A stretch of 64,000 nt of DNA, taken from contig NZ_SLXU01000007.1 in assembly GCF_004343505.1 (NCBI RefSeq), forward strand, positions 1 through 64,000, given 5' to 3'. Positions 13,658-60,703 of this stretch are shown here, piece by piece. Numbering within the stretch: position 1 is the first letter of the stretch; every line of letters begins with the position of its first letter. Both the position numbers and the translations under genes were made by a program. The stretch is from Rhodovulum bhavnagarense. Its GTDB lineage: Bacteria; Pseudomonadota; Alphaproteobacteria; Rhodobacterales; Rhodobacteraceae. The notes beneath the pieces were generated by a model. The model made no database searches, was not told the DNA's origin, and saw only the letters and a list, made by a program, of their open reading frames with translations.

Positions 13658-13741
13658 GGGCGACGCGCTGCAAGGTGCGGCAGCGGACTGTAAATCCGCC
13701 GGGGAGACCCATGCCTGGTTCGATTCCAGGGTCGCCCACCA
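13658..13741 (+). tRNA. tRNA-Tyr (GTA)
   Basis: The acceptor stem GGGCGAC pairs with GTCGCCC, followed by A and an encoded CCA. The anticodon stem GCGGA/TCCGC encloses loop CTGTAAA, giving anticodon GTA for tyrosine. A long variable arm of about 15 bases follows, as expected for a class II tRNA, and the T arm carries GGTTCGATTCC. The total of 84 bases is normal for bacterial tRNA-Tyr. Confidence 0.95.
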
Positions 13742-47041: not shown

Positions 47042-48297
47042 CGCCCGCAGCCAACGATGTCGTGCATCGCCGCAAGGAAGAGGGCAACTTCCTGCTCGGT
47101 ATTGTAATGGCACAGCGAGACGCGCACCGCGGCCTCCATCCCCAGAGGTGTCAGGATGTTGCCAGAGTAATGGTCGGCCTTGCGTGTATGTGTACGGATG
47201 CCCGCGGCGTTGAGCCGGTCCACGATCTCGGCGGCGGGCATGCCGTCGAGGGTGAAGGAGACCAGCCCCTCGCGCCGGGGGTTGTCGATGCCGCCGATTA
47301 CGGTAACGCCCGCGATCTGTGCCAGCCCGGGCAGGTTGCCGGTGCCGTGCAGCATGGCGTTTGTCAGCCGGGCCTCATGGGCGTGGATGGCGCGGCCGGC
47401 GGCCTCGATCCTTGTGCGGGGATCGGCGCTGTCGGTGAACTGGCCGCCCAGCCAGTCGAAATAGGCGACCACATCGGAGAAGGTGGCATAGGCACCGGTA
47501 TCGCGGGTGCCCAGTTCCCACGGGGAACCGGGGGCGTTCATCAGGCTGTCATGGGGCAGCGCGGCAAGGCGGTCGGACAGCCAGGCAAGCCCGTAGCCGT
47601 GGCGCGAAAACGCCTTGTAGGGCGAGATCACGTAGCCGTCGATGCCATAGGCCGAGAGGTCGATGCGGCCATGGGCGGCGTGCTGGATGCCGTCGACGAT
47701 GATATAGGCCTCGGGCGCGATGGCCCGGATTTCGGCGGCGATTGCGGCGACATCCACGCCCATGCCGGTCACCGGCGAGGTGTGCAGGATCGTGGCAACC
47801 CGCGTGTCCGCGGTGATCTGCGGCGCATAGGCCGCCGCATCGACCGAGCCCGTGGCATCGTCATGGGCGACCAGAACATGGGTCTTTCCCGAGAGCGGTG
47901 CGTAGCGGTCGGCCGCGCTGCGCGAGGCCGGGTGTTCGAGGGTGGAGCCCAGAACGCGGCCCGACCCGGTGCCCAGGCACGCCGTGCCGATCAGGCGGAA
48001 CAAGAGTTCCGTGCCGCTTTCGCCGACGATGAACTGGCCGTCGGGCGCGTTGAAGAAGGTGGCCATGTCGGTGCGCGCCCTGGCGATGACCTCCATCAGC
48101 GCGGCGGCGGCGGGGTTGGCGCGGCCCTGGTTGTCGGGGATCGCGGCGAATTTCGCGGATGTGTCGACAACGGACGTCAGGGTCAGCGCGCCGCCGGCAT
48201 TCTCGAAAAACACCCGTTCGCCCTGGAAGGGGCAGCTTTCGACATGGGCGAACCGCGCGCGGATCTCCTGCATCAGGCCGGGAACCGTGTCGAACAT
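47017..48297 (-). CDS. cysteine desulfurase-like aminotransferase class V protein
   Basis: The protein has 426 residues from ATG 48297. The fold type I PLP enzyme shows [15 protein letters not shown] near residue 40, [62 protein letters not shown] with the cofactor Asp, and the PLP Lys in [18 protein letters not shown] near residue 235. It belongs to a cysteine-desulfurase-like subfamily distinct from IscS/NifS/SufS, and its substrate is unknown. The 3' end overlaps truA by 25 bases. Confidence 0.83.
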
Positions 48298-48444
48298 CGC
48301 TGATCTCCTGTCTTGGGGCCGCGCGAGAAAACCGCAAAAGCGCAGCGGCCGCAAGGCGCGGAGTCGCAAGGCGGGTTTGCCCCTTCATCATCGCGTCTGC
48401 CTTGCCTAAGCTGCCGGCGAACCGCCCCGGACAAGGACCCCGAC

Positions 48445-49434
48445 ATGCCAGATACCTCTCCCAATCCGCGCCGCGTCTTCATGCTGGGGGCGACGGGCAC
48501 GATCGGCCGGGCGACGGTGGCCGCCCTGCTGGACAAGGGGCACGAGGTGGTCTGTTTCCTGCGCCCCCGCCCCGATGCGGACCCGCGCCGCGGCCTGCCC
48601 GAGGGGGCGGAGATCCGCACCGGCAACGTGACCGACCCGGGATCGCTGGCGCGCGACGGGTTCCGGGGCGAGCGGTTCGATGCGCTGGTCTCGTGCCTGG
48701 CCTCGCGCAGCGGCGCGCCTGCGGACGCCTGGGCCATCGACCACAAGGCCCATTCCGATGCGCTGGCCGCCGCCAGGGCCGCCGGTGTGGGCCAGATGGT
48801 TCTGCTGTCGGCGATCTGCGTGCAGAAACCTGACCTGGAATTCCAGAAGGCGAAACTGGCCTTCGAGGACGAGCTGGTGAAATCCGGCCTGACCTATTCC
48901 ATCGTGCGTGCGACGGCCTTCTTCAAGTCGCTGTCCGGGCAGGTGGAGCGGGTGCGCAAGGGCAAGCCCTTTCTCGTCTTCGGCGATGGCAGGCTGACCG
49001 CCTGCAAGCCGATCAGCGATGCCGATCTTGGCACCTATATCGCAGAGTGTCTGGACGATCCCGCGCGGCAGAACCGCATCCTGCCCATCGGCGGCCCCGG
49101 CCCCGCGATCACGCCGCTGGACCAGGGCCGGATGCTGTTCGAGTTGCTGGGGCAAGAGCCGAAATTCAAACATGTCCCGGTGGCGATGATGGACACGATC
49201 ATCGCGGTGCTGACCCTTCTGGGAAAAGTCTCGGCAAAGATGCGCAACAAGGCAGAGTTTGCCCGGATCGGCAAGTATTACGCGACCGAATCGATGTTGG
49301 TGCTGGACCCGGTTACCGACCGGTATGACGCCGACGCCACCCCCGAGGCGGGCCGCGATACCCTGAGGGTGTTCTACGCCCGGCTGATCGCGGGCGAGGA
49401 AACGGTGGATTTGGGCGAACACGCGGTCTTTTGA
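48445..49434 (+). CDS. bciA: divinyl (proto)chlorophyllide a 8-vinyl-reductase, BciA type
   Basis: The protein has 329 residues from ATG 48445 (AAGGA upstream). The N-terminal Rossmann motif is VFMLGATGTIGRATVAALL. The rest closely resembles BciA and plant DVR: LVSCLASRSGAPADAWAIDH, FQKAKLAFEDELVKSGLTYS, FGDGRLTACKPISDADLGTY, NRILPIGGPGPAITPLDQG and RIGKYYATESMLVLDP. It uses NADPH to reduce the C8 vinyl group during (bacterio)chlorophyll synthesis. No other bch or crt gene is in this window, so the main photosynthesis cluster must be elsewhere; its presence is inferred. Confidence 0.85.
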   Translation: MPDTSPNPRRVFMLGATGTIGRATVAALLDKGHEVVCFLRPRPDADPRRGLPEGAEIRTGNVTDPGSLARDGFRGERFDALVSCLASRSGAPADAWAIDHKAHSDALAAARAAGVGQMVLLSAICVQKPDLEFQKAKLAFEDELVKSGLTYSIVRATAFFKSLSGQVERVRKGKPFLVFGDGRLTACKPISDADLGTYIAECLDDPARQNRILPIGGPGPAITPLDQGRMLFELLGQEPKFKHVPVAMMDTIIAVLTLLGKVSAKMRNKAEFARIGKYYATESMLVLDPVTDRYDADATPEAGRDTLRVFYARLIAGEETVDLGEHAVF

Positions 49435-49567
49435 CACGCCCGGCGGGTGCCCGGCCCGGCACCGGCCCGGCAACAAGATGCCCAACCAGCGGGCAAGCCG
49501 CGCATCCCGCGCCCCCGCACACGGCAAGACCATTCCCCGCCTTGGCAAATCGCGCTAGGGCAAGGAT

Positions 49568-52084
49568 ATGGATATCGTCGTTCTCACCACCATCGTCGCG
49601 TCGCTATTCGTCGTGATCGGACTGGCAGAGCCCCTGGCCGGCTGGTTGCGCCTGCCTTACAGCGTGATCCTCGCGATGCTCGGGATGCTGATCGCGGCCG
49701 GGGCGATTTTGCTGCTGCGCACCGAAATCACGGATGCGCTGAACCCGGCGGCCGAGGCAATCCTGGGATTGCCGATCCGGTCAAACGTCTTTCTCTACGT
49801 TTTCTTGCCGACTCTGCTGTTCCAGGTCACGCTGGGCATGAACCTGCGCCGCATGCTGGACGACTGGGTGCCGATCCTGGTGCTGGCGGTGGTTGCGGTG
49901 GTGGTGGCGACCATGATGGTCGGCTATGCATTGGCCTGGGTCAGCCCTCTGCCCCTGGTTGCCTGCCTGCTGATCGGGGCGATCGTCTCGACCACCGATC
50001 CCTCTGCCGTGGTGTCGATCTTCCGCTCGCTTTCCGCGCCGCGCAGGCTGGCGCGGATCATCGAGGGCGAAAGCCTGCTCAACGATGCTGCGGCGATCAC
50101 GCTGTTCGGGCTGTTCATGGGATTTGTGATGCTGGGTGTGCCCGACCCCAGCCTCGGGGACGCGTTGGCCCGCTTTCCACTGTTGATCGCGGGCGGTGCG
50201 CTGACCGGATGGGTTGCCGCGCGGGTGGCGATCTGGGTGATGGGGCTGTTCGAGCGTCACGAGCTTGCGCAGATCTCGATCTCGGTTGCCCTGCCCTACC
50301 TGGCATATATCGGCGCGGAACAAAGCCTGGGCGCCTCGGGCGTGATCGCCGTGGTGGCGGCTGGCCTCACGCTGAACCTTTCGGGGCCGGGGCGGCTTGC
50401 CCCGCAGGCCTGGGCGAACCTGCGCGAAATCTGGGATCTGCTGGCGCATTGGGCCGGCGCACTGATCTTTATCCTTGCCGCGCTGCTGATTCCGCGCCTG
50501 CTGGAAGAGGTCAGAACCGAGGATTTCGTTCTTCTGGGCGTGGTGATCCTGGCCGCCATCGCGGCGCGCGCCATCATCTTGTTTGGCCTGTTGCCATTGC
50601 TGCGGCTCATACGGCTTTCACCGGCAGTTGAACGGCCCTATCGCGTCGCGATCCTGTGGGGCGGTCTGCGCGGTGCGGTCACGCTGGCGCTGGCACTGGC
50701 AGTCACCGAAAGTTTCCGCGTGCCCCTGGAGGTCAAGCGCGAGGTAGGCGTCCTGGCCACCGGGTTCACTCTATTCACCCTGATCGTGCAGGGGATAACG
50801 TTGCGTCCCGTGATCCGCTGGCTGGGGCTGGAACGGCTATCACCATTGGACGAGGCGCTGTCGCGGCAGGTGGTCGCCGTGGCCTTGCAGACAGTGCGCG
50901 AAGACGTGGCGAAAACCACGGAAAATTATGACCTGCCCCATGACGTCGTCCGTTCAGAGGCCAAACAGTTCGGCGCGCGGCTGGAAGAAGCCGTGCGCAG
51001 CGCCGAGGAAAATACCGAGATTCTCGACCGCGACCGCATCACCCTGGGCCTGATCGCGCTGGCCGGCGCCGAGCGTGACGCGGTTGTGAGCCGCCTGCGC
51101 GAACGCAGCGTATCGGGGCGGCTGGCAGACAGGCTGTTGTCGGATGCCGACCGCCTGATCGAAGGGGCACGCACCGGTGGGCGGCTGGGCTATATGCGCG
51201 CGGCGCGCGAGGGGCTGACCTATCGCTGGTCGTTCCGGGTCGCGGTGGTTTTGCACAACCGCGTCGGGCTGACGCGGCCACTTGCGCGGCTGACCGCCGA
51301 CCGCTTTGAACGGCTGCTGTCAAAACGCCTGATCCTGCGCGATCTCGGCGGCTTCATCGAGGGGCGCATCCGCCGAATCCATGGCCGGCGCGTGGCCGAA
51401 TTGCTGCAAGAGTTGCTCTCGCGTCGGATCGAGGCGGTCGAGACCGCTCTTGAGGGGCTGCACCTGCAATATCCGGGCTATGCCGAGGAACTGGAACGCC
51501 GCCTGATCCGCCGCACAGCGCTGAGGCTGGAGGAGCGCGAATACACGCTGATGCGAGAGGACGGCCTGATCGGACCAGAGCTGTTCACCGCGCTCATGCA
51601 GGACATCACCGCGCGCCGCGCCGCCGCCGAAGAGCGCCCGCCGCTGGACCTGGCCGCACGCGCGACCGAAATGGTGCGTCAGTTTCCGTTATTTGCCGAT
51701 CTCGACGATGAACGGCTGGCCCGGCTTTGCAAGGCGCTGACCAGCCGCTATGTCGATGCCGGCGAGGTGATCCTGCGCAAGGACAGTACGCCGCGCAAAG
51801 TCTATTTCATAGCATCGGGCGCAGTAGAACTGGAAAGCGCGGGCCAGACCTCGCGGCTGGGACGGGGCGACATGTTCGGTCAATTGGCGGTGCTGATGCA
51901 GCGGCCGCGCCGGACCGAGGTGCGCGCGATCGCGCCCTCGACCTTGCTGGAGCTTGACGAGGCGCGGTTCCGCCGCCTTCTGAAACGCAGTCCGATCCTG
52001 CGCGCGGGCGTGCGCGACAGCGCGGGCAAGCGGGGCATCGCCGCCGAGGCGCTGTTGTCACAAGGCGGCCCGCGCAACGTCTGA
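49568..52084 (+). CDS. CPA1-type Na+/H+ antiporter with C-terminal cyclic-nucleotide-binding domain
   Basis: The 838-residue protein has an N-terminal antiporter domain of about 11-12 helices (residues 5-420), with GAIVSTTDPSAVVSIF near 142, EGESLLNDAAAITLFG near 167 and LWGGLRGAVTLALAL near 365, all CPA1 signatures. A long soluble helical region (430-700) follows, then a cNMP-binding-like fold: FPLFADLDDERLARLCKALTSRYVDAGEVIL, VYFIASGAVEL and RLGRGDMFGQLAVLMQRPRRTEVRAI. The whole resembles plant SOS1 and the bacterial NhaP-cNMP type. It exchanges Na+ or K+ for H+, probably under nucleotide or allosteric control. Confidence 0.88.
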   Translation: MDIVVLTTIVASLFVVIGLAEPLAGWLRLPYSVILAMLGMLIAAGAILLLRTEITDALNPAAEAILGLPIRSNVFLYVFLPTLLFQVTLGMNLRRMLDDWVPILVLAVVAVVVATMMVGYALAWVSPLPLVACLLIGAIVSTTDPSAVVSIFRSLSAPRRLARIIEGESLLNDAAAITLFGLFMGFVMLGVPDPSLGDALARFPLLIAGGALTGWVAARVAIWVMGLFERHELAQISISVALPYLAYIGAEQSLGASGVIAVVAAGLTLNLSGPGRLAPQAWANLREIWDLLAHWAGALIFILAALLIPRLLEEVRTEDFVLLGVVILAAIAARAIILFGLLPLLRLIRLSPAVERPYRVAILWGGLRGAVTLALALAVTESFRVPLEVKREVGVLATGFTLFTLIVQGITLRPVIRWLGLERLSPLDEALSRQVVAVALQTVREDVAKTTENYDLPHDVVRSEAKQFGARLEEAVRSAEENTEILDRDRITLGLIALAGAERDAVVSRLRERSVSGRLADRLLSDADRLIEGARTGGRLGYMRAAREGLTYRWSFRVAVVLHNRVGLTRPLARLTADRFERLLSKRLILRDLGGFIEGRIRRIHGRRVAELLQELLSRRIEAVETALEGLHLQYPGYAEELERRLIRRTALRLEEREYTLMREDGLIGPELFTALMQDITARRAAAEERPPLDLAARATEMVRQFPLFADLDDERLARLCKALTSRYVDAGEVILRKDSTPRKVYFIASGAVELESAGQTSRLGRGDMFGQLAVLMQRPRRTEVRAIAPSTLLELDEARFRRLLKRSPILRAGVRDSAGKRGIAAEALLSQGGPRNV

Positions 52085-52097
52085 ACCCGCCCGCGCG

Positions 52098-53087
52098 TCA
52101 GCCCGCCTGTTGCAACCGGGTTTCCCCGGCGATCAGGCGGGCACCCTCATGGGGCGGCAAGGCGACCGGGGCGGCATCGCCCTCGGCCATGCGCGGTGGC
52201 GACCACAGCGCATGAATCAGACGAACCAGCCTGGCGGCATCGGGGTGGCGCGTGCCCGGCGCATGGGGCGGCAGGGCCTGAATGCGGGGATGGCCGGGGG
52301 CGGGACGCATCGCGGGCCATTCGACCATCTCGAACTGCCCTTCGAGAGTCTCGATGACGGCGGTATGGTGCCCTCCCTCCTGCTTGGCACCGGTCCATGA
52401 CCCGCAATTGGCCAGCAGGATGCCGCCCTGCCTGCGCATCAAGGGCAAATGGCTGTGGCCGCAGACGATCCCGTCCATCCCGTCCTCCGAGGCGCGGCGC
52501 AGCGCCCGGCGCGCATAGCGATTGGCAAGATGGAGCGCGTTCTTTGCGATTTCCTTTCCCAGCGACCAGCGCCGTCCCCGGCCCGGGGCATTTTCGTCAC
52601 TGGGGCGCGGGCGGACCAGCGCCCGTTCAACCAGGAACGACCAGATCCGATCCGCAAACCGGGAACTGCTCCGCGTCAGCGCGCCGTCGAACTGGTCGCC
52701 ATGCATCACAAGATATTCCCGCCCATCGCGGGCACGGTGGACGATCCGTTCCTCGACCCTGATGCCGAACCTGCGCAACAGAACCGGACGGAACAGGATC
52801 GCAAGGATGTCGCGCAGCTTTTCGTCATGGTTGCCGGTGATCAGGGTGATACGCACCCGGCGGCGGCGACGTTCCAGCAACATGTCTACAAGATCGCTGT
52901 AATCCTGGTTCCAGTACCAGCGGCTTTCCAGTTTCCAACCGTCCAGCACGTCACCGACAAGATAGATACGCTCGAATTCATGGGCGCGCAGAAATGCGTT
53001 CAACGCCGTGATATCCGCCCCCTTGTAGCCCAGATGCAGGTCAGAGACGAAAACGCTGCGGACCTTTCTCGGCTTTGGGTTGCTCAT
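52098..53087 (-). CDS. plcP: PlcP-type metallophosphoesterase (phospholipase C for lipid remodelling)
   Basis: The 329-residue calcineurin-like phosphoesterase carries all metal motifs: FVSDLHLGYKG, VGDVLDGWKLE, ITGNHDEKLRD, VMHGDQFDG and VCGHSHLPLM with GSW following. Databases often label it UDP-2,3-diacylglucosamine hydrolase-like. Its length and its adjacency to a glycosyltransferase of the phosphate-starvation type point instead to PlcP, which releases diacylglycerol from phospholipids. It overlaps the glycosyltransferase stop by four bases. Regulation by PhoB is expected from the intergenic Pho box. The substrate choice rests on context and family, not on a decisive residue. Confidence 0.75.
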   Translation of the reverse strand: MSNPKPRKVRSVFVSDLHLGYKGADITALNAFLRAHEFERIYLVGDVLDGWKLESRWYWNQDYSDLVDMLLERRRRRVRITLITGNHDEKLRDILAILFRPVLLRRFGIRVEERIVHRARDGREYLVMHGDQFDGALTRSSSRFADRIWSFLVERALVRPRPSDENAPGRGRRWSLGKEIAKNALHLANRYARRALRRASEDGMDGIVCGHSHLPLMRRQGGILLANCGSWTGAKQEGGHHTAVIETLEGQFEMVEWPAMRPAPGHPRIQALPPHAPGTRHPDAARLVRLIHALWSPPRMAEGDAAPVALPPHEGARLIAGETRLQQAG

Positions 53088-54223
53088 GTGCGCAGGCCCG
53101 CCGCGTGGGCCTGGAAATCGCGCGCCACCTCGTCCCAGCTATAGCGCGCGCGCGTGGCCGCGTAACGATCGGCCCGCGTACCCGGCGCGGCCAACGCGCG
53201 CGCGACAGCGCGGCCCAGGTCGTCGTCGATTGCCCCGAACAGCGGCTCGCCGGCAACGATGTCGCGCGGGCCCGGCGCATCATGGGCGGCCACCGGCAGG
53301 CCGCAAGCCAACGCCTCAAGCAGGACATTGCCAAAGGTGTCTGTGCGCGAGGGAAATACGAAGACATCCGCCGCGCGATAGGCGTCGGCCAAGGGTTTGC
53401 CGGTCAGTGTGCCGCGGAACTCGACCTGCGGATAGCGGGCGCGCAGAACGGCCAGTTGCGGCCCGTCGCCGACCACAACCTTGCGCCCCGGCAGGTCGAG
53501 CCTCAGGAAAGCCTCTATGTTCTTTTCCGGCGCGACCCGGCCGACGAACAGCATCACCGGACCGGCACCGGGTGTGCGGGGCTGGCTGCCGGGATTGAAC
53601 TGGTCGAAATCCACACCGCGCGACAACCGGACGATCCGGTTGGCAAATCCCCATTGCCGTAACTGGGCCTCGATCGAGGGGGCGGCGACATAGATATGGC
53701 GCGCCGGCGCATGGAACCGGCGCAACATCGCCACCGACAACCCCGCGGCACCGCGGCGCAGCGCACCGGGCATGCGCACGGCGACGTAGGCAGGGAAATT
53801 GGTATGGAAGGCGGTCGAGAATCCGACCCCTTTTTCCAGGCACCAGCGCCGCGCGGCCCAGCCCAGCGGCCCCTCGACGGGGATATGGATCGCCTCGGGG
53901 GCATAGGATTCGATCCGCTCGGCCAGCGCGCGAAAGGGTCGGACCGCCAGCGGGATTTCCGGATAGGACGGCAAGGCCACGTTACGGAATTCCGCCGGGC
54001 CGATCACCTTGACGCTGCAACCGCGCGCCTCAAGAGCGGCGCCAATATGTTCATAGGTGCGCACAACGCCATTGACCTGCGGTGCCCAGGCGTCGCTGAC
54101 GATCAGGAACCGCCGGGGCAGCCACTGAGCGTCAGTCACGAGAGGATCGGGCGCGCGGACCGACACCTGCGCTGCCCCACCAGGTTCGGCAACCGGCGCC
54201 ATGCCATCCAGGGCCATGGACAT
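53084..54223 (-). CDS. agt: glycosyltransferase family 4 (Agt-like, glycolipid synthesis)
   Basis: The protein has 379 residues from ATG 54223 (AAGGA 8 bases upstream; TTG 54229 is an alternative). It has the GT-B fold with DAWAPQVNGVVRTYEHIG near residue 47, GPLGWAARRWCLEKGVGFSTAFHTNFPAYV in the middle, and the donor-site LFVGRVAPEKNIEAFLRL, VVVGDGPQLAVL and FVFPSRTDTFGNVLLEALACG (GT4 E-x7-E motif). Proteins of this kind (Agt, SqdX/MgtA-related) add a sugar to diacylglycerol. Paired with PlcP it would complete phospholipid-to-glycolipid replacement under low phosphate. Sugar donor unknown. Confidence 0.78.
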   Translation of the reverse strand: MSMALDGMAPVAEPGGAAQVSVRAPDPLVTDAQWLPRRFLIVSDAWAPQVNGVVRTYEHIGAALEARGCSVKVIGPAEFRNVALPSYPEIPLAVRPFRALAERIESYAPEAIHIPVEGPLGWAARRWCLEKGVGFSTAFHTNFPAYVAVRMPGALRRGAAGLSVAMLRRFHAPARHIYVAAPSIEAQLRQWGFANRIVRLSRGVDFDQFNPGSQPRTPGAGPVMLFVGRVAPEKNIEAFLRLDLPGRKVVVGDGPQLAVLRARYPQVEFRGTLTGKPLADAYRAADVFVFPSRTDTFGNVLLEALACGLPVAAHDAPGPRDIVAGEPLFGAIDDDLGRAVARALAAPGTRADRYAATRARYSWDEVARDFQAHAAGLRT

Positions 54224-54536
54224 GGGCAATTCCTTTCAGTGCACATCCTTGAATTGCACGCCTGTTAACGGCGCCACATGACAAATCCGTGTCACGTTAC
54301 CGATCGGGCTGCGGCAGATCGCGCAACGACCGGCACGCAATGACAGGCCGCGCATCCGATGGCCTTGCTTTGCCCGCCCCGGACGCGATCAACATTACCC
54401 CGATTCACACGGCGGAACCGCCCCTCGCATCTGTCATAAAACCGTTGTAAAAATTTTACAAAAGGGTCGCTGACGGCCGGTACCCAACAGCGGCAGGTGC
54501 GAATCTGCACCCGAAAGCAAATCTTCAGGAGCACGC
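54224..54536. promoter_or_regulatory. divergent promoter region between agt-plcP and pst operon
   Basis: This 313-base gap separates agt (leftward) and pstS (rightward) and holds no gene. It carries the Pho box at 54431-54448, a TGACA/TGTCA inverted repeat at 54279-54294, and an isolated CTGTCAT half-site on the minus strand at 54340-54346. All are in positions to control one or both operons; only the first is strong. Confidence 0.6.
54431..54448 (+). promoter_or_regulatory. Pho box upstream of pstS
   Basis: CTGTCATAAAACCGTTGT has a perfect first heptamer (CTGTCAT), a 4-base A spacer, and a second heptamer (CCGTTGT) matching 4 of 7. This is the PhoB-binding arrangement of two direct heptamers, 11 bases apart. 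A further AT-rich stretch (aaaaattttac) follows, as usual for the third unit and promoter. It is 88 bases before the pstS start codon. Confidence 0.65.
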
Positions 54537-55568
54537 ATGTCCTATATCAAAGTGACCGCCTCGGCGCTGGCGATCGCGGCCGTCTCGGCCACCTCCGCCG
54601 CCGCGCGCGACAACGTTCAGATTGCCGGTTCTTCGACCGTGCTGCCCTATGCCTCGATCGTGGCCGAGGCCTTCGGCGAAAACTTCGATTTCCCGACTCC
54701 CGTCGTGGAATCGGGCGGCTCCGGCGCGGGCCGCAAGAAACTGTGCGAAGGCGTGGGCGAAAACACCATCGACATCGCCAACTCGTCCTCGCGCATCAAG
54801 CAGTCGGACATCGACCTGTGCGCCCAGAACGGCGTGACCGAGATCCAGGAAGTCCGCATCGGCTATGACGGCATCGTCTTTGCCTCGGACATCAACGGCC
54901 CCTCCTTCGCCTTCACCCCGGCCGACTGGCACGCCGCGCTGGCCGCCAAGGTCGTCAAGGACGGCCAGCTTGTCGACAACCCGAACAAGACCTGGGCCGA
55001 CGTGCGCGCCGACCTGCCGGCGCAGGACATCCTGGCCTTCATCCCGGGCACCAAGCACGGCACCCGTGAAGTGTTCGACGAGAAAGTGATCATCGCCGGC
55101 TGCGAAGAGAATGGCACCCTGGCCGCCCACGAGGCCGCCGGCGCCGAAGACGCCGAGGACGCCTGCATGCAGCTGCGCACCGACGGCGTGTCGATCGACA
55201 TCGACGGCGACTACACCGAGACGCTGGCACGCGTGGATGCCAACAAGAACGGCATCGGCGTGTTCGGCCTGTCGTTCTACCAGAACAACACCGACAAGCT
55301 TCAGGTCGCCACGATGAACGGAGTGGTTCCCTCGGTCGAGTCGATCGCGAAGGGCGAATACCCGGTGTCGCGTCCGCTGTATTTCTACGTCAAGAACGCG
55401 CATCTCGACGTGATCCCGGGCATGCAGGAATACATCGAGTTCTTCGTGTCCGACGACATGGCCGGCCCCGACGGCCCGCTGGCCGCCTATGGCCTGGTGT
55501 CCGACCCGGAACTGGCCAAGACGCAGGAAATGGTTCGCAACCGCACCCCGATGGGGCCGCTGAACTGA
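54537..55568 (+). CDS. pstS: phosphate ABC transporter substrate-binding protein PstS
   Basis: The 343-residue protein has a signal peptide (MSYIKVTASALAIAAVSATSAAA), the phosphate-binding loop GSSTVLPYASIVAEAFGE, SGGSGAGRKKLCEGVGE with conserved Ser/Gly, and FIPGTKHGTREVFDEKVI near residue 165. A Shine-Dalgarno AGGAG lies 6 bases before ATG 54537. It binds periplasmic phosphate for PstCAB. A hairpin follows the gene before pstC, suggesting that pstS mRNA is made in excess. Confidence 0.95.
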   Translation: MSYIKVTASALAIAAVSATSAAARDNVQIAGSSTVLPYASIVAEAFGENFDFPTPVVESGGSGAGRKKLCEGVGENTIDIANSSSRIKQSDIDLCAQNGVTEIQEVRIGYDGIVFASDINGPSFAFTPADWHAALAAKVVKDGQLVDNPNKTWADVRADLPAQDILAFIPGTKHGTREVFDEKVIIAGCEENGTLAAHEAAGAEDAEDACMQLRTDGVSIDIDGDYTETLARVDANKNGIGVFGLSFYQNNTDKLQVATMNGVVPSVESIAKGEYPVSRPLYFYVKNAHLDVIPGMQEYIEFFVSDDMAGPDGPLAAYGLVSDPELAKTQEMVRNRTPMGPLN

Positions 55569-55580
55569 TCAAGACCTAGG

Positions 55581-55618
55581 CGGGCGGCGCAGCACGCGCC
55601 GCCCGTCCCCTTTTCTTT
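55581..55618 (+). terminator. hairpin with T-rich tail between pstS and pstC
   Basis: CGGGCGGCGC (55581-55590) pairs perfectly with GCGCCGCCCG (55596-55605) around a 5-base loop, followed by tccccttttcttt. This is an intrinsic terminator-like structure inside the pst operon. It would reduce readthrough from pstS into pstC or protect the pstS mRNA 3' end, giving more binding protein than permease. Confidence 0.7.
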
Positions 55619-55632
55619 GGGGTGGATATTTC

Positions 55633-57093
55633 ATGAGCGCAGGCATCCTCATCACGATCGTGCTGGTTCTGGCGATCGTTGGCTTCGTTCTCGGTCGCAG
55701 GCGCGCCGTGGCGACAGCGGGCGGCGACGGCAGGCGCTTGCATTCTCTTCCAGGCTATTACGGCCAGTCGGTGGCGCTGTTCGCGGCTGTGCCGGCACTG
55801 TTGTTGATGGCGGTGTGGCTGTTCATGCAACCGGTCGTGATCGACGGCCGCATCGGCGAGATGATCCCCGACAGCGCCGTGCCCGATGGCGGAAGCCGCG
55901 GCCTGGTGATGTCGGACGTGCGCCGCATCGCAGACGGCATCGAACAACTTGTCGATCAGGGCCTGGTGTCCGAGACCGACCTAGCAACGATGCGCGCCGA
56001 TTTTACCAATGTCCGCGGTCGGCTCGGCGAGGTGGGCATCGCACTGGGGTCTAACGTGTCGCCCGGTGTTTTCGAGGCTGCCAAGGTCTATCGCGACGCC
56101 AACCGGACCGGCGGCTTGATTATGACGATCGCGGTTCTTGCGGTGGCTGCGGCATGTTTTGCCTGGTCCTACCTGCGGATCAAACCCGATCTGCGCGCCC
56201 GCAACATCAGCGAGACCTTCGTCATGGCCTTGTTGATCGGGTCGTCGCTGGTCGCGATCCTGACCACGGTCGGCATCGTCGCGTCGCTGGTGGTCGAAAC
56301 ATTTCACTTCTTCCAGATGTATCCAGCCTCCGAGTTCTTTTTCTCGACGACGTGGAACCCGCAGTTCCGCGGAGGATCTGACCTGGGCATCCTGCCGCTG
56401 TTGTGGGGCACGCTCTACGTCTCGTTCGTGGCGCTGGTGGTCGCGGTGCCGATCGGGCTGATGATCGCGATTTACCTGTCGGAATATGCCAGCAAGACGC
56501 TTCGCAGCCTGGCCAAGCCCGCGATCGAGATCCTCGCCGGGATTCCAACGATCGTCTACGGCCTGTTCGCGCTGATCACGGTCGGACCCTTTATCCGCGA
56601 CTGGATCGCCGAACCGACGGGCCTTGGCTCGTCCTCGTCCTCGGTTCTGACGGCGGGCGTCGTGATGGGCATCATGCTGATCCCCTTCGTCAGTTCTCTG
56701 TCGGATGACATCATCAACTCGGTGCCGCAGGCGATGCGGGATGGCGCCTACGGCCTGGGCGCGACCCGCTCCGAGACGATCCGCCAGGTCGTTCTGCCCG
56801 CCGCGTTGCCCGGCGTTGTGGGCGCGATCCTGCTGGCGGCGAGCCGCGCCATAGGCGAGACGATGATCGTGGTGCTGGGGGCTGGGGCCGCGGCCAAACT
56901 GGGCCTGAATCCCTTCGACGCGATGACGACCGTCACGGTCAAGATCGTCAGCCAGTTGACCGGCGACACCGAATTCGCCAGCCCCGAGACGCTGGTTGCC
57001 TTCGCGCTGGGTCTCACGCTTTTCGTTTTCACGCTGGGGCTGAATGTCCTCGCCCTTTATATCGTGCGCAAATACCGGGAACAGTACGAATGA
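55633..57093 (+). CDS. pstC: phosphate ABC transporter permease PstC
   Basis: The 486-residue inner-membrane protein is longer than E. coli PstC because of a roughly 190-residue N-terminal part with two or three helices (ILITIVLVLAIVGFVLG, LFAAVPALLLMAVWLF, VFEAAKVYRDANRTGGLI). The permease domain follows: TTWNPQFRGGSDLGILPLLWGTLYVSFVALVVAVPIGLMIAIYLSEYA, and the EAA loop in AMRDGAYGLGATRSETIRQVVLPAALPG near residue 375. The extended form is usual in Rhodobacteraceae. It overlaps pstA by four bases. Confidence 0.93.
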   Translation: MSAGILITIVLVLAIVGFVLGRRRAVATAGGDGRRLHSLPGYYGQSVALFAAVPALLLMAVWLFMQPVVIDGRIGEMIPDSAVPDGGSRGLVMSDVRRIADGIEQLVDQGLVSETDLATMRADFTNVRGRLGEVGIALGSNVSPGVFEAAKVYRDANRTGGLIMTIAVLAVAAACFAWSYLRIKPDLRARNISETFVMALLIGSSLVAILTTVGIVASLVVETFHFFQMYPASEFFFSTTWNPQFRGGSDLGILPLLWGTLYVSFVALVVAVPIGLMIAIYLSEYASKTLRSLAKPAIEILAGIPTIVYGLFALITVGPFIRDWIAEPTGLGSSSSSVLTAGVVMGIMLIPFVSSLSDDIINSVPQAMRDGAYGLGATRSETIRQVVLPAALPGVVGAILLAASRAIGETMIVVLGAGAAAKLGLNPFDAMTTVTVKIVSQLTGDTEFASPETLVAFALGLTLFVFTLGLNVLALYIVRKYREQYE

Positions 57094-58451
57094 CCGACGC
57101 GACCGACCCCTCGGCCCAACCCGCCGCAGCGCCCCAGCGCCGATCCTCTCTGTTGCAGCTTGACGAGCGCACCCGCCGCCGCAATGCCGCCGAGGCACGC
57201 TTTCGCCTGATGGGGCTGATCGCCGTGACAATCGGCATCCTGGCGGTGATCGGGCTCATCTCGTCGATCCTGTTCAACGGGGCGTCCTCGTTCCGCCAGA
57301 CCTTCATCACGCTGGATGTCTACCTGGACCCGGCAAAACTCGACAAGGCGGGCACCCGGGATCCAGAGGCGATTTCCAAGGTCACCACCTTCGGCTACGC
57401 ACCGCTTCTGCAAAAGGGGCTGGTGGATACGATGGCCGCACAAGGTATCGCACTGGATGGTCTGACAGCAAAACAGGCGGCCGAGCTGATCTCGAAAGAG
57501 GCCCCCGCGCAGCTTCGTCGCTACGTGATGGCCGATGTTTCACGCATCGGACAAACAGTGACATTCGACGTGCTGGCCGCGGGCCGGATCGACGGCTATT
57601 TCAAAGGCCGGGTGACGATGGAAAGCGCCGCGCTTGACCGCAACGTCTCGCCCGAACAACTGATGCTGGCCGACCGCCTTAAAGAGGCCGGGATGCTGCG
57701 CACCAAGTTCAACCTCGACTTCTTCACCGCGCCCGATGCGTCCGACACACGGCCCGAGGCCGCAGGGCTTGGCGTGGCGATCCTCGGTTCGGCCTACATG
57801 ATGCTGGTGGTGCTGGTGCTGGCGCTGCCGCTGGGCGTGGCTGCCTCGATCTATCTCGAGGAATTCGCGCCCAAGAACCGTTTTACCGACCTGATCGAGG
57901 TGAACATCTCGAACCTGGCCGCGGTGCCCTCGATCGTGTTCGGTATCCTGGGCCTTGCCGTTTTCATCAACTTCGCCGGGCTGCCGCAATCGGCGCCGAT
58001 CGTGGGCGGTCTCGTGCTGACGCTGATGACGCTGCCCACGATCATCATTGCCACGCGCGCCTCTCTCAAGGCGGTGCCGCCCTCGATCCGCGACGCGGCG
58101 CTGGGGGTCGGGGCGTCGAAGATGCAGTCGGTGTTCCACCACGTTCTGCCGCTGGCGATGCCGGGCATCCTGACCGGCACGATCATCGGGCTGGCGCAGG
58201 CGCTGGGCGAGACCGCGCCGCTCTTGCTGATCGGCATGGTGGCCTTCGTGCGGGAATATCCCTCGGGCCCGCCCGACGGCTTTTTCGAACCCGCTGCCGC
58301 GCTGCCGGTGCAGGTCTACAACTGGACCCAGCGCGGCGACCCGGCCTTTGTCGAACGGGCCTCGGGCGCCATCATCGTTCTGCTGGTTTTCCTCGTGATC
58401 ATGAACGCGATCGCCATCATCCTGCGCCGTCGCTTCGAGCGCCGCTGGTAG
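57090..58451 (+). CDS. pstA: phosphate ABC transporter permease PstA
   Basis: The 453-residue protein has an N-terminal DUF3333-type extension (about residues 1-220, one helix near 50-68, then a periplasmic part with LDVYLDPAKLDKAGTRDPE) and a PstA permease domain: GLGVAILGSAYMMLVVLVLALPLGVAASIYLEEFAP, VEVNISNLAAVPSIVFGILG and an EAA loop in SIRDAALGVGASKMQSVFHHVLPLAMPG near residue 332. It starts in an ATGA overlap with pstC and is followed by pstB after 21 bases. Confidence 0.93.
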   Translation: MTDATDPSAQPAAAPQRRSSLLQLDERTRRRNAAEARFRLMGLIAVTIGILAVIGLISSILFNGASSFRQTFITLDVYLDPAKLDKAGTRDPEAISKVTTFGYAPLLQKGLVDTMAAQGIALDGLTAKQAAELISKEAPAQLRRYVMADVSRIGQTVTFDVLAAGRIDGYFKGRVTMESAALDRNVSPEQLMLADRLKEAGMLRTKFNLDFFTAPDASDTRPEAAGLGVAILGSAYMMLVVLVLALPLGVAASIYLEEFAPKNRFTDLIEVNISNLAAVPSIVFGILGLAVFINFAGLPQSAPIVGGLVLTLMTLPTIIIATRASLKAVPPSIRDAALGVGASKMQSVFHHVLPLAMPGILTGTIIGLAQALGETAPLLLIGMVAFVREYPSGPPDGFFEPAAALPVQVYNWTQRGDPAFVERASGAIIVLLVFLVIMNAIAIILRRRFERRW

Positions 58452-58472
58452 GGCCGGGAAAGGACCCGTAAC

Positions 58473-59270
58473 ATGTACGACAATCCATTGACGAAGAGGG
58501 ACGCAGTGACCAAAGAGGTGAAAATCTCGGCCCGCGGCTGCCAAGTGTATTATGGCGACACCCATGCCATCAAGGACGTGGACGTGGACATCGAGGACAA
58601 GACGGTGACGGCATTCATCGGCCCCTCGGGCTGCGGCAAGTCCACTTTTCTGCGTTGCCTGAACCGAATGAACGACACCATCGATGTCTGCCGCGTAGAG
58701 GGCGATATCCGACTTGACGGCGAGGACATCTACGACCCCAAGGTCGACCCGGTGCAATTGCGCGCCAAGGTCGGCATGGTGTTCCAGAAACCCAATCCGT
58801 TCCCCAAGTCGATCTACGACAACGTGGCCTATGGCCCCAAGATCCACGGCATGTCCCGCAACAAGGCCGAGCTGGACGAGATCGTGGAACGCGCGCTGCG
58901 CCGCGGCGCGATCTGGGACGAGGTCAAGGACAGGCTGGACGCGCCGGGCACCGGGCTTTCGGGCGGCCAGCAACAGCGTCTGTGCATCGCGCGCGCGGTG
59001 GCGACCGAACCCGAGGTTCTGTTGATGGACGAGCCCTGTTCGGCGCTCGATCCGATCGCAACCGCCCAGGTCGAGGAGTTGATCGACGAGCTGCGCGAGC
59101 AGTATTCGGTGGTGATCGTCACCCACTCGATGCAGCAGGCCGCCCGCGTCAGCCAGAAGACCGCGTTCTTCCACCTCGGCAATCTCGTGGAATATGGCGA
59201 GACGGGGCAGATCTTTACAAATCCACAAGACCCCAGGACCGAAAGCTACATCACCGGCCGGATCGGCTGA
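58473..59270 (+). CDS. pstB: phosphate ABC transporter ATP-binding protein PstB
   Basis: The 265-residue ABC ATPase has Walker [16 protein letters not shown] near residue 49, signature [18 protein letters not shown] near residue 162, Walker [14 protein letters not shown] near residue 182 and the His switch [12 protein letters not shown]. The Q-loop [19 protein letters not shown] is the PstB-specific form. AAAGGA is 9 bases before the ATG. It powers the PstCA channel. Confidence 0.96.
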
Positions 59271-59283
59271 GGGAGGATTGTCC

Positions 59284-60009
59284 ATGTCGGAATCTACAAA
59301 GGGCCCACATATCGTCAGGTCATACGACCGCGACCTCGAGGCGATCCAGGCACTCATCATGAAGATGGGCGGCCTTGTCGAAGCCGCGATCCTGGAATCG
59401 GCGAATTCGCTTGAGGCACGGGACGAGGAACAGGCCGAACGCGTGCGCAAGGGCGACAAGGCCATCGATGCGCTGGAAGAACAAGTCAACGAAGAGGCCG
59501 CACGCCTTTTGGCACTGCGTCAGCCATCGGCGGGTGACCTGCGCACGGTTCTGACCGTGATGAAGATCTCTGCCAACCTGGAACGCGTTGGCGATTACGC
59601 CAAGAACATGGCCAAGCGCACCGGGGTTCTCTTGCAGATGGCCCCGATCGAGGGATCGTCGGGCGCGATCCGGCGCATGGCCAAGGCGGTCGAGATCATG
59701 CTCAAAGATGCGCTGGACGCCTATATCCAGCGCGACGTCGAACTGGCCCAGGACGTGCGACTGCGCGACCACGAGGTCGACCAGATGTATAATGCACTGT
59801 TCCGCGAATTCCTGACCTTCATGATGGAAGACCCGCGCAACATCACCGCCTGCATGCATCTTCACTTCATCGCCAAGAACATCGAGAGGATGGGGGATCA
59901 TGTCACCTCGATCGCGGAACAGGTGATCTACCTGGTCACCGGCGAGTTGCCCGAGGACGAGCGCCCCAAGGCCGACCGGACCGCCATAGACCCGACGACG
60001 GCACAGTGA
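59284..60009 (+). CDS. phoU: phosphate signalling protein PhoU
   Basis: The protein has 241 residues from ATG 59284; the frame extends upstream through the pstB 3' end without family sequence. It has two three-helix bundles with the metal-cluster motif EADKAID-like KGDKAIDALEEQVNEEAARLLALRQP near residue 60 and LRDHEVDQMYNALFREFLTFM near residue 165. PhoU links PstSCAB to PhoR and keeps the regulon off when phosphate is plentiful. It precedes phoB by one base. Confidence 0.95.
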   Translation: MSESTKGPHIVRSYDRDLEAIQALIMKMGGLVEAAILESANSLEARDEEQAERVRKGDKAIDALEEQVNEEAARLLALRQPSAGDLRTVLTVMKISANLERVGDYAKNMAKRTGVLLQMAPIEGSSGAIRRMAKAVEIMLKDALDAYIQRDVELAQDVRLRDHEVDQMYNALFREFLTFMMEDPRNITACMHLHFIAKNIERMGDHVTSIAEQVIYLVTGELPEDERPKADRTAIDPTTAQ

Positions 60010-60010
60010 C

Positions 60011-60703
60011 ATGAGCACGGTCGAACAACCCACGGTTCTGGTCGTCGAGGATGAACCGGCACAGCGCGAGGTGCTGGCCTATAACCTTGAGGCCGAGGGC
60101 TTTGTCGTGGCGAGGGCCGCGACCGGCGATGAGGCGCTCTTGCTGGTCGACGAGGTGTCGCCCGATATCGTTGTCCTCGACTGGATGCTGCCTTCGGTCT
60201 CGGGGATAGAAGTCTGCCGCCGGCTGAAATCCCGGCAGGAAACGCGCAACCTGCCGATCATCATGCTGTCGGCCCGCGCCGAAGAGGTGGACCGGGTGCG
60301 CGGGCTTGAAACAGGCGCGGACGATTATGTGGTCAAGCCCTATTCCGTGAACGAGTTGATGGCGCGGGTGCGTGCGCATCTGCGCCGCACTCGCCCCGCC
60401 GCGGTCGGTCAGAAACTGGAATTCGAGGATATCCTTCTCGATTCCGAAACCCACAAGGTCTTTCGCGGCGAAAAGCTGTTGAAACTCGGGCCGACCGAAT
60501 TTCGCCTTTTATCCACCTTCATGGAAAAGCCCGGCCGCGTCTGGAGCCGCGAACAATTGCTGGACCGGGTCTGGGGGCGCGACATATATGTCGACACGCG
60601 CACTGTCGACGTGCATATCGGCCGCCTGCGCAAGGCGCTGTGCCAGCATGGCGGCGCCGACCCGGTGCGCACCGTGCGCGGTGCCGGTTACGCCCTGGGT
60701 TAA
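60011..60703 (+). CDS. phoB: phosphate regulon response regulator PhoB
   Basis: The 230-residue OmpR-family regulator has an acidic pair VVEDEPAQ, phospho-acceptor Asp in VVLDWMLPSVSG near residue 56, Lys in DDYVVKPYSVNELMARV near residue 107, and a winged-helix domain (LGPTEFRLLSTFMEKPGRVWSREQLLDRVWG, VDTRTVDVHIGRLRKAL). It binds Pho boxes. The sensor kinase PhoR is not next to it in this window. It ends 18 bases from the convergent allophanate hydrolase gene. Confidence 0.95.
   Translation: MSTVEQPTVLVVEDEPAQREVLAYNLEAEGFVVARAATGDEALLLVDEVSPDIVVLDWMLPSVSGIEVCRRLKSRQETRNLPIIMLSARAEEVDRVRGLETGADDYVVKPYSVNELMARVRAHLRRTRPAAVGQKLEFEDILLDSETHKVFRGEKLLKLGPTEFRLLSTFMEKPGRVWSREQLLDRVWGRDIYVDTRTVDVHIGRLRKALCQHGGADPVRTVRGAGYALG

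Follow-up and report, generated by a model that had tools for sequence, protein, structure and literature searches.

The closest described parallel to the locus reported here is the plcP-agt pathway of membrane lipid remodelling, which is already known, together with its Pho control, from PMC4796936, PMC8528852 and PMC9239053. The gene pair has been described in Pseudomonas aeruginosa as PA3219-PA3218 (PMC8528852) and in Methylosinus (PMC9239053); PA3218 (Agt1) makes monoglucosyldiacylglycerol out of diacylglycerol and uridine diphosphate (UDP)-glucose (PMC8528852), and in the described layout, called type 2, agt lies downstream of plcP (PMC4796936). A second non-phosphorus lipid module containing PlcP, the type 1 plcP-btaAB module of Phaeobacter MED193 (PMC4796936), has no adjacent agt and leads to a betaine lipid via BtaA and BtaB. 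Finally, the glycosyltransferase GTcp of Candidatus Pelagibacter HTCC7211 (PMC8231724) belongs to a GTcp/Agt group marked by the motifs GRVAxEKN and FPSxTDTFG, the latter with Asp for Glu. We analysed the first 64,000 nucleotides of contig NZ_SLXU01000007.1 of Rhodovulum bhavnagarense, the window in what follows, from a genome of 3.15 Mb. It holds an Agt-family GT4 glycosyltransferase gene and a PlcP-like phosphoesterase gene, adjacent in one operon with a Pho-box-like site, as in the plcP-agt pathway. It differs from that pathway in that agt comes first, in that the PlcP-like protein belongs to a separate clade, carries an insertion and extends further at its C terminus, and in that the pair lies back-to-back with a pst operon. 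The pair is very probably a low-phosphate membrane lipid remodelling operon, which would respond together with the pst operon through separate sites, the adjacency of the two probably resulting from the placement of a pst allele.

The layout given in a preliminary description of this DNA, made from the letters alone, was found complete: two minus-strand open reading frames (ORFs) overlap by four bases and diverge from pstSCAB-phoU-phoB (Table 1). The agt-like ORF is open from a TTG at 54229 (53084-54229), and the ATG at 54223 is the likelier start; with that start the intergenic region spans 54224-54536, that is, 313 bases.

Identification of the GT4 enzyme as an Agt, also proposed at the outset, was borne out by motifs, identity and tree position. 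The protein carries the Pfam domains Glyco_transf_4 and Glyco_trans_1_4, and no NCBIfam model matched it at cut-off. It contains GRVAPEKN and FPSRTDTFG, the second with the catalytic Asp in place of Glu, and its alignment has an invariant His within the expected FHT block. These features, including Asp where MshA has Glu, are those of GTcp, a likeness drawn by motif alone, the GTcp sequence lying outside our alignments. Identity to P. aeruginosa Agt1 was 48.8% over 344 columns. The protein used for this comparison is encoded by a plasmid-borne copy directly after PlcP and adjoining cyaB, and was taken to be PA3218/Agt1 from its gene position, cyaB being PA3217. Both plcP and agt1 were matched in pHOU1-1 (L168) and in two more P. 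aeruginosa records filed as plasmids (matches H2, H4 and H5); cyaB adjoins them in pHOU1-1, the sole one of the three inspected, as it does on the P. aeruginosa chromosome. In the glycosyltransferase tree, 12 rows from loci with the glycosyltransferase first formed one group (100/100) among the Agts. This tree was built without L071, its L072 row (genome G156) is an ORF with the N-terminal part out of frame, and its outgroup is badly placed, the six outgroup rows being very long and not on one side of a branch. The AlphaFold2 model (predicted local distance difference test, pLDDT, 88) has a GT-B fold and matches MshA, BshA and PimA.

The phosphoesterase had been read as a PlcP rather than as the lipopolysaccharide (LPS) hydrolase expected from database labels. 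Such a label does prevail: most annotated homologues, among the matches listed, are named UDP-2,3-diacylglucosamine diphosphatase. The protein contains the Pfam domains Metallophos and Metallophos_2 and all the calcineurin metallophosphoesterase motifs (DxH, GD, GNHD, GHxH). Its metal-site blocks are complete, with D16, H18, D46, N86, H87, D88, H211 and H213 invariant in two alignments, and it has the blocks GNHDE, HGDQFD and GHSH in common with PlcPs. Identity was 33.0% to P. aeruginosa PlcP and 35.7% to Sinorhizobium meliloti PlcP. The gene of the latter adjoins acyl-homoserine-lactone synthase and LuxR-type genes, and with that neighbourhood we take it to be SMc00171.

If the database name were right, the protein would be an enzyme of lipid A, either LpxH or one functionally equivalent to it, and LPS would be the target of the pair. 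Besides the name, this has in its favour the calcineurin-like fold shared with LpxH and the fact that the closest solved structures are LpxH. A search of solved structures with the phosphoesterase sequence gave zero matches at E 0.001, while the structural model (pLDDT 78) has an LpxH-like fold and its first 25 Foldseek matches were all LpxH structures, at 17-21% identity and a template-modelling score of 0.42-0.46 by query length. Such a modelled likeness is what would be expected within the superfamily, and the superposition is modest. Profile scores, on the other hand, fell far under the LpxH cut-offs: the protein reached 30.9 of 134 bits with PRK05340 and 20.1 of 190.35 with TIGR01854, two models that gave 364 and 389 bits for Escherichia coli LpxH and 55 and 45 for P. 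aeruginosa PlcP. The protein has GNHDE where the three LpxH rows used have GNRDF, and the PlcP-type blocks NCGxW and DGxxCGH are missing from those rows. Moreover, an LpxI-like gene lies directly 5′ of lpxB in the window genome (it passed both Pfam cut-offs and missed the NCBIfam equivalog cut-off, with 200 of 400 bits), and a homologue of the phosphoesterase is absent, at E 0.001, from 5 of the 16 genomes in the genus, from which it follows that the phosphoesterase is not essential there. We thus give a lipid A enzyme almost no chance. LpxH identity was rejected on profile scores, motifs and the LpxI-like gene; the tree, whose root is unsettled, played no part. By residues and context, the protein is PlcP-like and not LpxH, the tree being compatible with a place inside or outside the PlcP clade.

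Phylogenetic comparison with characterised sequences, which the preliminary description had called for, gave for the phosphoesterase a less clear picture than for the Agt. Named loci were fetched with a mixed PlcP profile, as the best 80 of at least 587. A first tree held 41 of these 80, and a careful one (56 rows) held 32, after rows L245, L143, L130, L101, L118, L113, L097, L142, L126 and L114 had been dropped; the characterised PlcPs represented in it are those of P. aeruginosa and S. meliloti, but not those of MED193, Pelagibacter or Methylosinus. The window protein fell within an 11-row clade (support 99/100) with a long stem, apart from both characterised PlcPs. Approximately unbiased (AU) tests rejected neither a single clade of the classical rows (p 0.3) nor the window clade joined with LpxH on its stem (p 0.374) or with the classical rows (p 0.277), and the second of these is a point in favour of the lipid A enzyme. 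In members of the clade the GNHDE block is followed by a 7-residue insertion, and the C terminus ends in a tail for which a helix is predicted. This helix was not unusually amphipathic, its moment of 0.56 lying below 0.68, the 95% level among 14-mers taken from the protein itself.

These particularities could mean that the pair makes a glycolipid and that the phosphoesterase of loci with the glycosyltransferase first has a non-classical substrate, such as a particular phospholipid, phosphatidic acid or a glycerophospho-sugar lipid. The separate clade with its long stem, the insertion and the tail speak for it, as does a reversed gene order throughout the branch: in 13 of the 13 loci inspected (the window, six congeners, L068-L073, G347, G214, G832, G806, G612 and one Micavibrio record), the agt-like gene is first, directly upstream of the plcP-like gene, and none of them has the type 2 layout. 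We nevertheless hold this alternative to be unlikely, as the metal-site blocks are retained, the motifs and identity of the partner are those of an ordinary Agt, and the helix is unremarkable. Among the 80 named loci, agt was directly downstream of plcP in 42, upstream in one (Micavibrio) and adjacent on the opposite strand in one. No agt was found at E 1e-20 within the fetched flank of the other 36, two of which have less than 1500 bases downstream; one of these two, L102, shows the start of an agt, which the contig end truncates.

Within the genus (16 genomes), 7 genomes have the close form of the phosphoesterase (65-100% identity) and 4 have a homologue at 37-40%. Three of these four distant homologues (G150, G153, G163) are followed by btaA- and btaB-like genes, as in the plcP-btaAB module, the PlcPs of these congeners being just 35-40% identical to that of the window; the fourth is followed by glycosyltransferase-like and DedA-like genes. 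Pfam DUF3419 identified btaA in two of the three, and btaB and DedA were assigned by eye. A btaA-family search matched 4 of the 16 genomes, namely the three plcP-btaAB genomes and, more weakly, G152, and none of the 7 agt-plcP genomes. This exclusion is as expected for alternative non-phosphorus lipid modules. On a LigA tree, built from tblastn pieces (G154 being represented by one of two pieces), the lipid modules required 6 changes, for a minimum of 3 and a shuffled mean of 7.8, a value as low being obtained in 11 of 200 shuffles. In wider samples, any homologue was found in 65 of 390 genomes at the order level, a draw that took in 4 of the 16 genomes of the genus, and in 146 of 385 at the class level; 5 of the order-level homologues, the window's included, were intact with more than 50% identity. 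In G141 (L002, L027), a plcP-like gene that belongs to the window's branch (53% identity) is in two pieces and may be decayed.

A Pho box had been noticed between the two operons, and its presence is borne out by conserved position. There are in fact two candidate sites, the agt-facing one being new. The plain Pho-box consensus gave no excess over the window (2 matches at up to 3 mismatches, versus 2.23 expected from shuffles), so that the case for both boxes rests on the keeping of their positions in relatives. In 14 of 15 congeners a pstS-facing site, which agrees with the consensus at 9-14 of 14 positions, precedes the start by 87-116 bases; in the exception, G159, the best match is elsewhere. 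The corresponding alignment of pstS upstream regions has 13 rows, the window and 12 of the 15 congeners. Upstream of agt, the alignment of 8 loci (the window, six congeners and G806) has 11 invariant columns, 8 of which fall inside TGACAnnnnnnnGTnA (54278-54295). The best agt-facing site stops 162-181 bases short of the conserved DAW codons in all 8 of them, and 98 bases short of these codons in another three genomes, where the N terminus is shorter. Each candidate site keeps its position in relatives where the two operons are apart. A scan of 51900-55700 for sigma-70-type promoters detected none.

Physical linkage had further been taken to suggest one coordinated response unit, and this part did not hold: the pair has a candidate box of its own, and pst is beside agt-plcP in 0 of the 6 other congeneric genomes carrying the pair, as judged from the fetched stretches. 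In five of these six, pstS is on another contig, and in G156 it is about 490 kb away. In G159 and G162, where agt is near a contig end, the contig with pstS extends for over 10 kb upstream of that gene, which excludes a back-to-back layout at pstS. With a separate box for each operon, a joint response does not need neighbourhood. Co-regulation of both operons through separate candidate Pho boxes is thus likely, and linkage as its basis, neither needed nor conserved, is not supported.

How pst came to lie beside the pair was approached by comparing congeners. The window block that matches the G150 pst operon (L193; Table 1) at 86% identity in DNA is bordered by the inside of the Pho box on one side (54433) and the phoB stop on the other (60699), and beyond it no match was found in the 20 kb compared. 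Window PstS is 97% identical to that of G150 and 71-73% or 43-45% to those of the 14 others, LigA is 83% identical to that of G150 and 86% to that of G149, and PhoB does not follow the PstS pattern (89% to G150, 92% to G149). The window genome groups with G149 in the LigA tree (96/94), G150 grouping there with three others (100/99), and it groups with G150 in the PstC tree (95/94); this conflict suggests exchange between species. Gene order in G149 is that of the window over 47055-54121, a stretch that starts on the antiporter side and ends within the 5′ region of agt, with pst elsewhere. Congener G150 carries the plcP-btaAB betaine-lipid module. In 10 of 15 congeners phoR is directly 5′ of pstS; the best PhoR match of the window genome is on a different contig (L208 10423-11460, 306 bits, below the 334.2 cut-off) and retains upstream of it a short block that occurs in 3 of the 8 relatives compared. 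The simplest reading of these comparisons is that congeners exchanged a divergent pst allele, pstSCA at the least, which landed beside a resident agt-plcP pair; exchange or relocation of the pst operon is likely. Two side observations were made on these genes. The phoR match of the window genome is about 7 kb downstream of lpxI-lpxB, and a third pst allele is present in G160, G162 and G159 (L205, L206, L207), its PstS being 43-46% identical to the window's; in G160 and G162 the Pho box upstream of pstS agrees with the consensus at 14 of 14 positions.

The sequence of events at low phosphate would be as follows. Phosphorylated PhoB would bind the agt-facing box and switch on agt-plcP. The PlcP-like metalloenzyme, judging by its homologues, would remove the head group of a phospholipid, giving diacylglycerol and freed phosphate, and Agt would add a sugar, for instance glucose or glucuronic acid from a UDP sugar, to give a glycolipid, as published biochemistry of the family suggests. 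The pst operon would be switched on by the same regulator through its own box, and the adjacency of the two operons would have arisen when the divergent pst allele came upstream of the resident pair.

Several observations weigh against this reading. The phosphoesterase clade contains neither the P. aeruginosa nor the S. meliloti PlcP, its long stem would leave room for another substrate, and the AU tests leave the root of the tree unfixed. The agt-facing box of the window scored only 2.3 bits on a pst-derived matrix (empirical p 0.24), that of L069 was likewise weak (2.6 bits, p 0.22), and no agt-facing site was found in L088 or L213. The agt match of G156 (L072 10277-11301) consists of two pieces that overlap and are in different frames, and the gene may be disrupted or mis-sequenced. 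Lastly, among the 80 named loci, 4 have phosphate-uptake genes close to plcP, namely those from Robiginitomaculum, Phenylobacterium and two Undibacterium (all but one Undibacterium inspected), and such recurrent clustering may mean that adjacency is of some benefit. The back-to-back layout itself could then have been selected, as a shared regulatory region making one response unit. Two candidate boxes within a single intergenic region would fit this, as would the four loci, pstS being convergent in Robiginitomaculum and Phenylobacterium. We see a small chance of it at best, given that none of the six congeneric genomes with the pair has the layout, that relatives with separated operons retain each box, and that the pst allele looks newly placed. 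Clustering of plcP with pst recurs, yet is not the rule. By eye, plcP-agt is convergent with pstS, then porin-like and phosphonate-transport-like genes, in L092 5971-12718 (Robiginitomaculum) and L150 1027-7649 (Phenylobacterium). In Undibacterium jejuense (L108 3289-12006), also by eye, plcP is directly 3′ of an acyltransferase-like gene, between pstS-like genes; SixA-like and polyphosphate-kinase-like genes are further neighbours, with pstC nearby.

Features of the locus are collected in Table 1. Besides the Pfam result given there, PstS was under the cut-off of its NCBIfam subfamily (132 vs 206.6 bits). On the other side of the pair, 49568-52084 encodes a sodium/proton antiporter with a C-terminal cyclic-nucleotide-binding domain, which adjoins the pair also in G149. 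Elsewhere in the window, ARAGORN called a tRNA-Tyr at 13658-13741 that is missing from the Rfam gathering-scan list.

Table 1. Positions of the agt-plcP pair, the pst operon and their candidate regulatory sites in the window
Feature	Position	Strand	Basis
agt-like GT4 glycosyltransferase, operon gene 1	53084..54223	-	Pfam, motifs, identity to Agt1, tree, model
PlcP-like calcineurin metallophosphoesterase, operon gene 2, 329 aa	52098..53087	-	Pfam, identity to PlcPs, tree
ATGA overlap, agt stop and plcP-like start	53084..53087	-	sequence
Pho-box-like site GTGACACGGATTTGTCAT facing agt	54278..54295	-	10 of 14 consensus positions
Pho-box-like site CTGTCATAAAACCGTTGT facing pstS	54431..54448	+	11 of 14 consensus positions; 88 bases before pstS start
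Block 86% identical to G150 pst operon	54433..60699	+	blastn vs L193 5843-12095
pstS	54537..55568	+	Pfam PBP_like_2 cut-off passed
pstC	55633..57093	+	over NCBIfam cut-off
pstA	57090..58451	+	over NCBIfam cut-off
pstB	58473..59270	+	over NCBIfam cut-off
phoU	ATG about 59284..60009	+	over NCBIfam cut-off (scanned from 59281)
phoB	60011..60703	+	above TIGR02154 cut-off

In a literature search of titles and abstract openings, no report was found of the pair in Rhodovulum or beside pst, nor of the reversed-order clade, of alternation with a betaine module within one genus, or of a relocated pst allele. The pathway is known and the phosphoesterase is a separate branch of a known kind; the pair and its locus are a variant of what has been described. 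A bolder proposal, which we regard as doubtful, is that the clade with the glycosyltransferase first is a second, biochemically distinct remodelling system, in which the phosphoesterase would differ in substrate or membrane attachment and the Agt branch would co-evolve with it, the Rhodovulum cassettes (pair, betaine module and pst alleles) being exchanged. If this were true, Rhodovulum species would reassemble their low-phosphate response from interchangeable parts.

For a group of alphaproteobacterial proteins, the analysis corrects the misleading name UDP-2,3-diacylglucosamine diphosphatase, and it brings out a PlcP-like branch that contains neither of the characterised PlcPs used. Within one genus, the lipid module varies among related species, some having one for glycolipid and some one for betaine lipid, with a different arrangement or no module at all in the rest. 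The choice among phosphorus-free lipids, and the way it relates to the alleles for phosphate uptake, thereby become directly testable in this genus.

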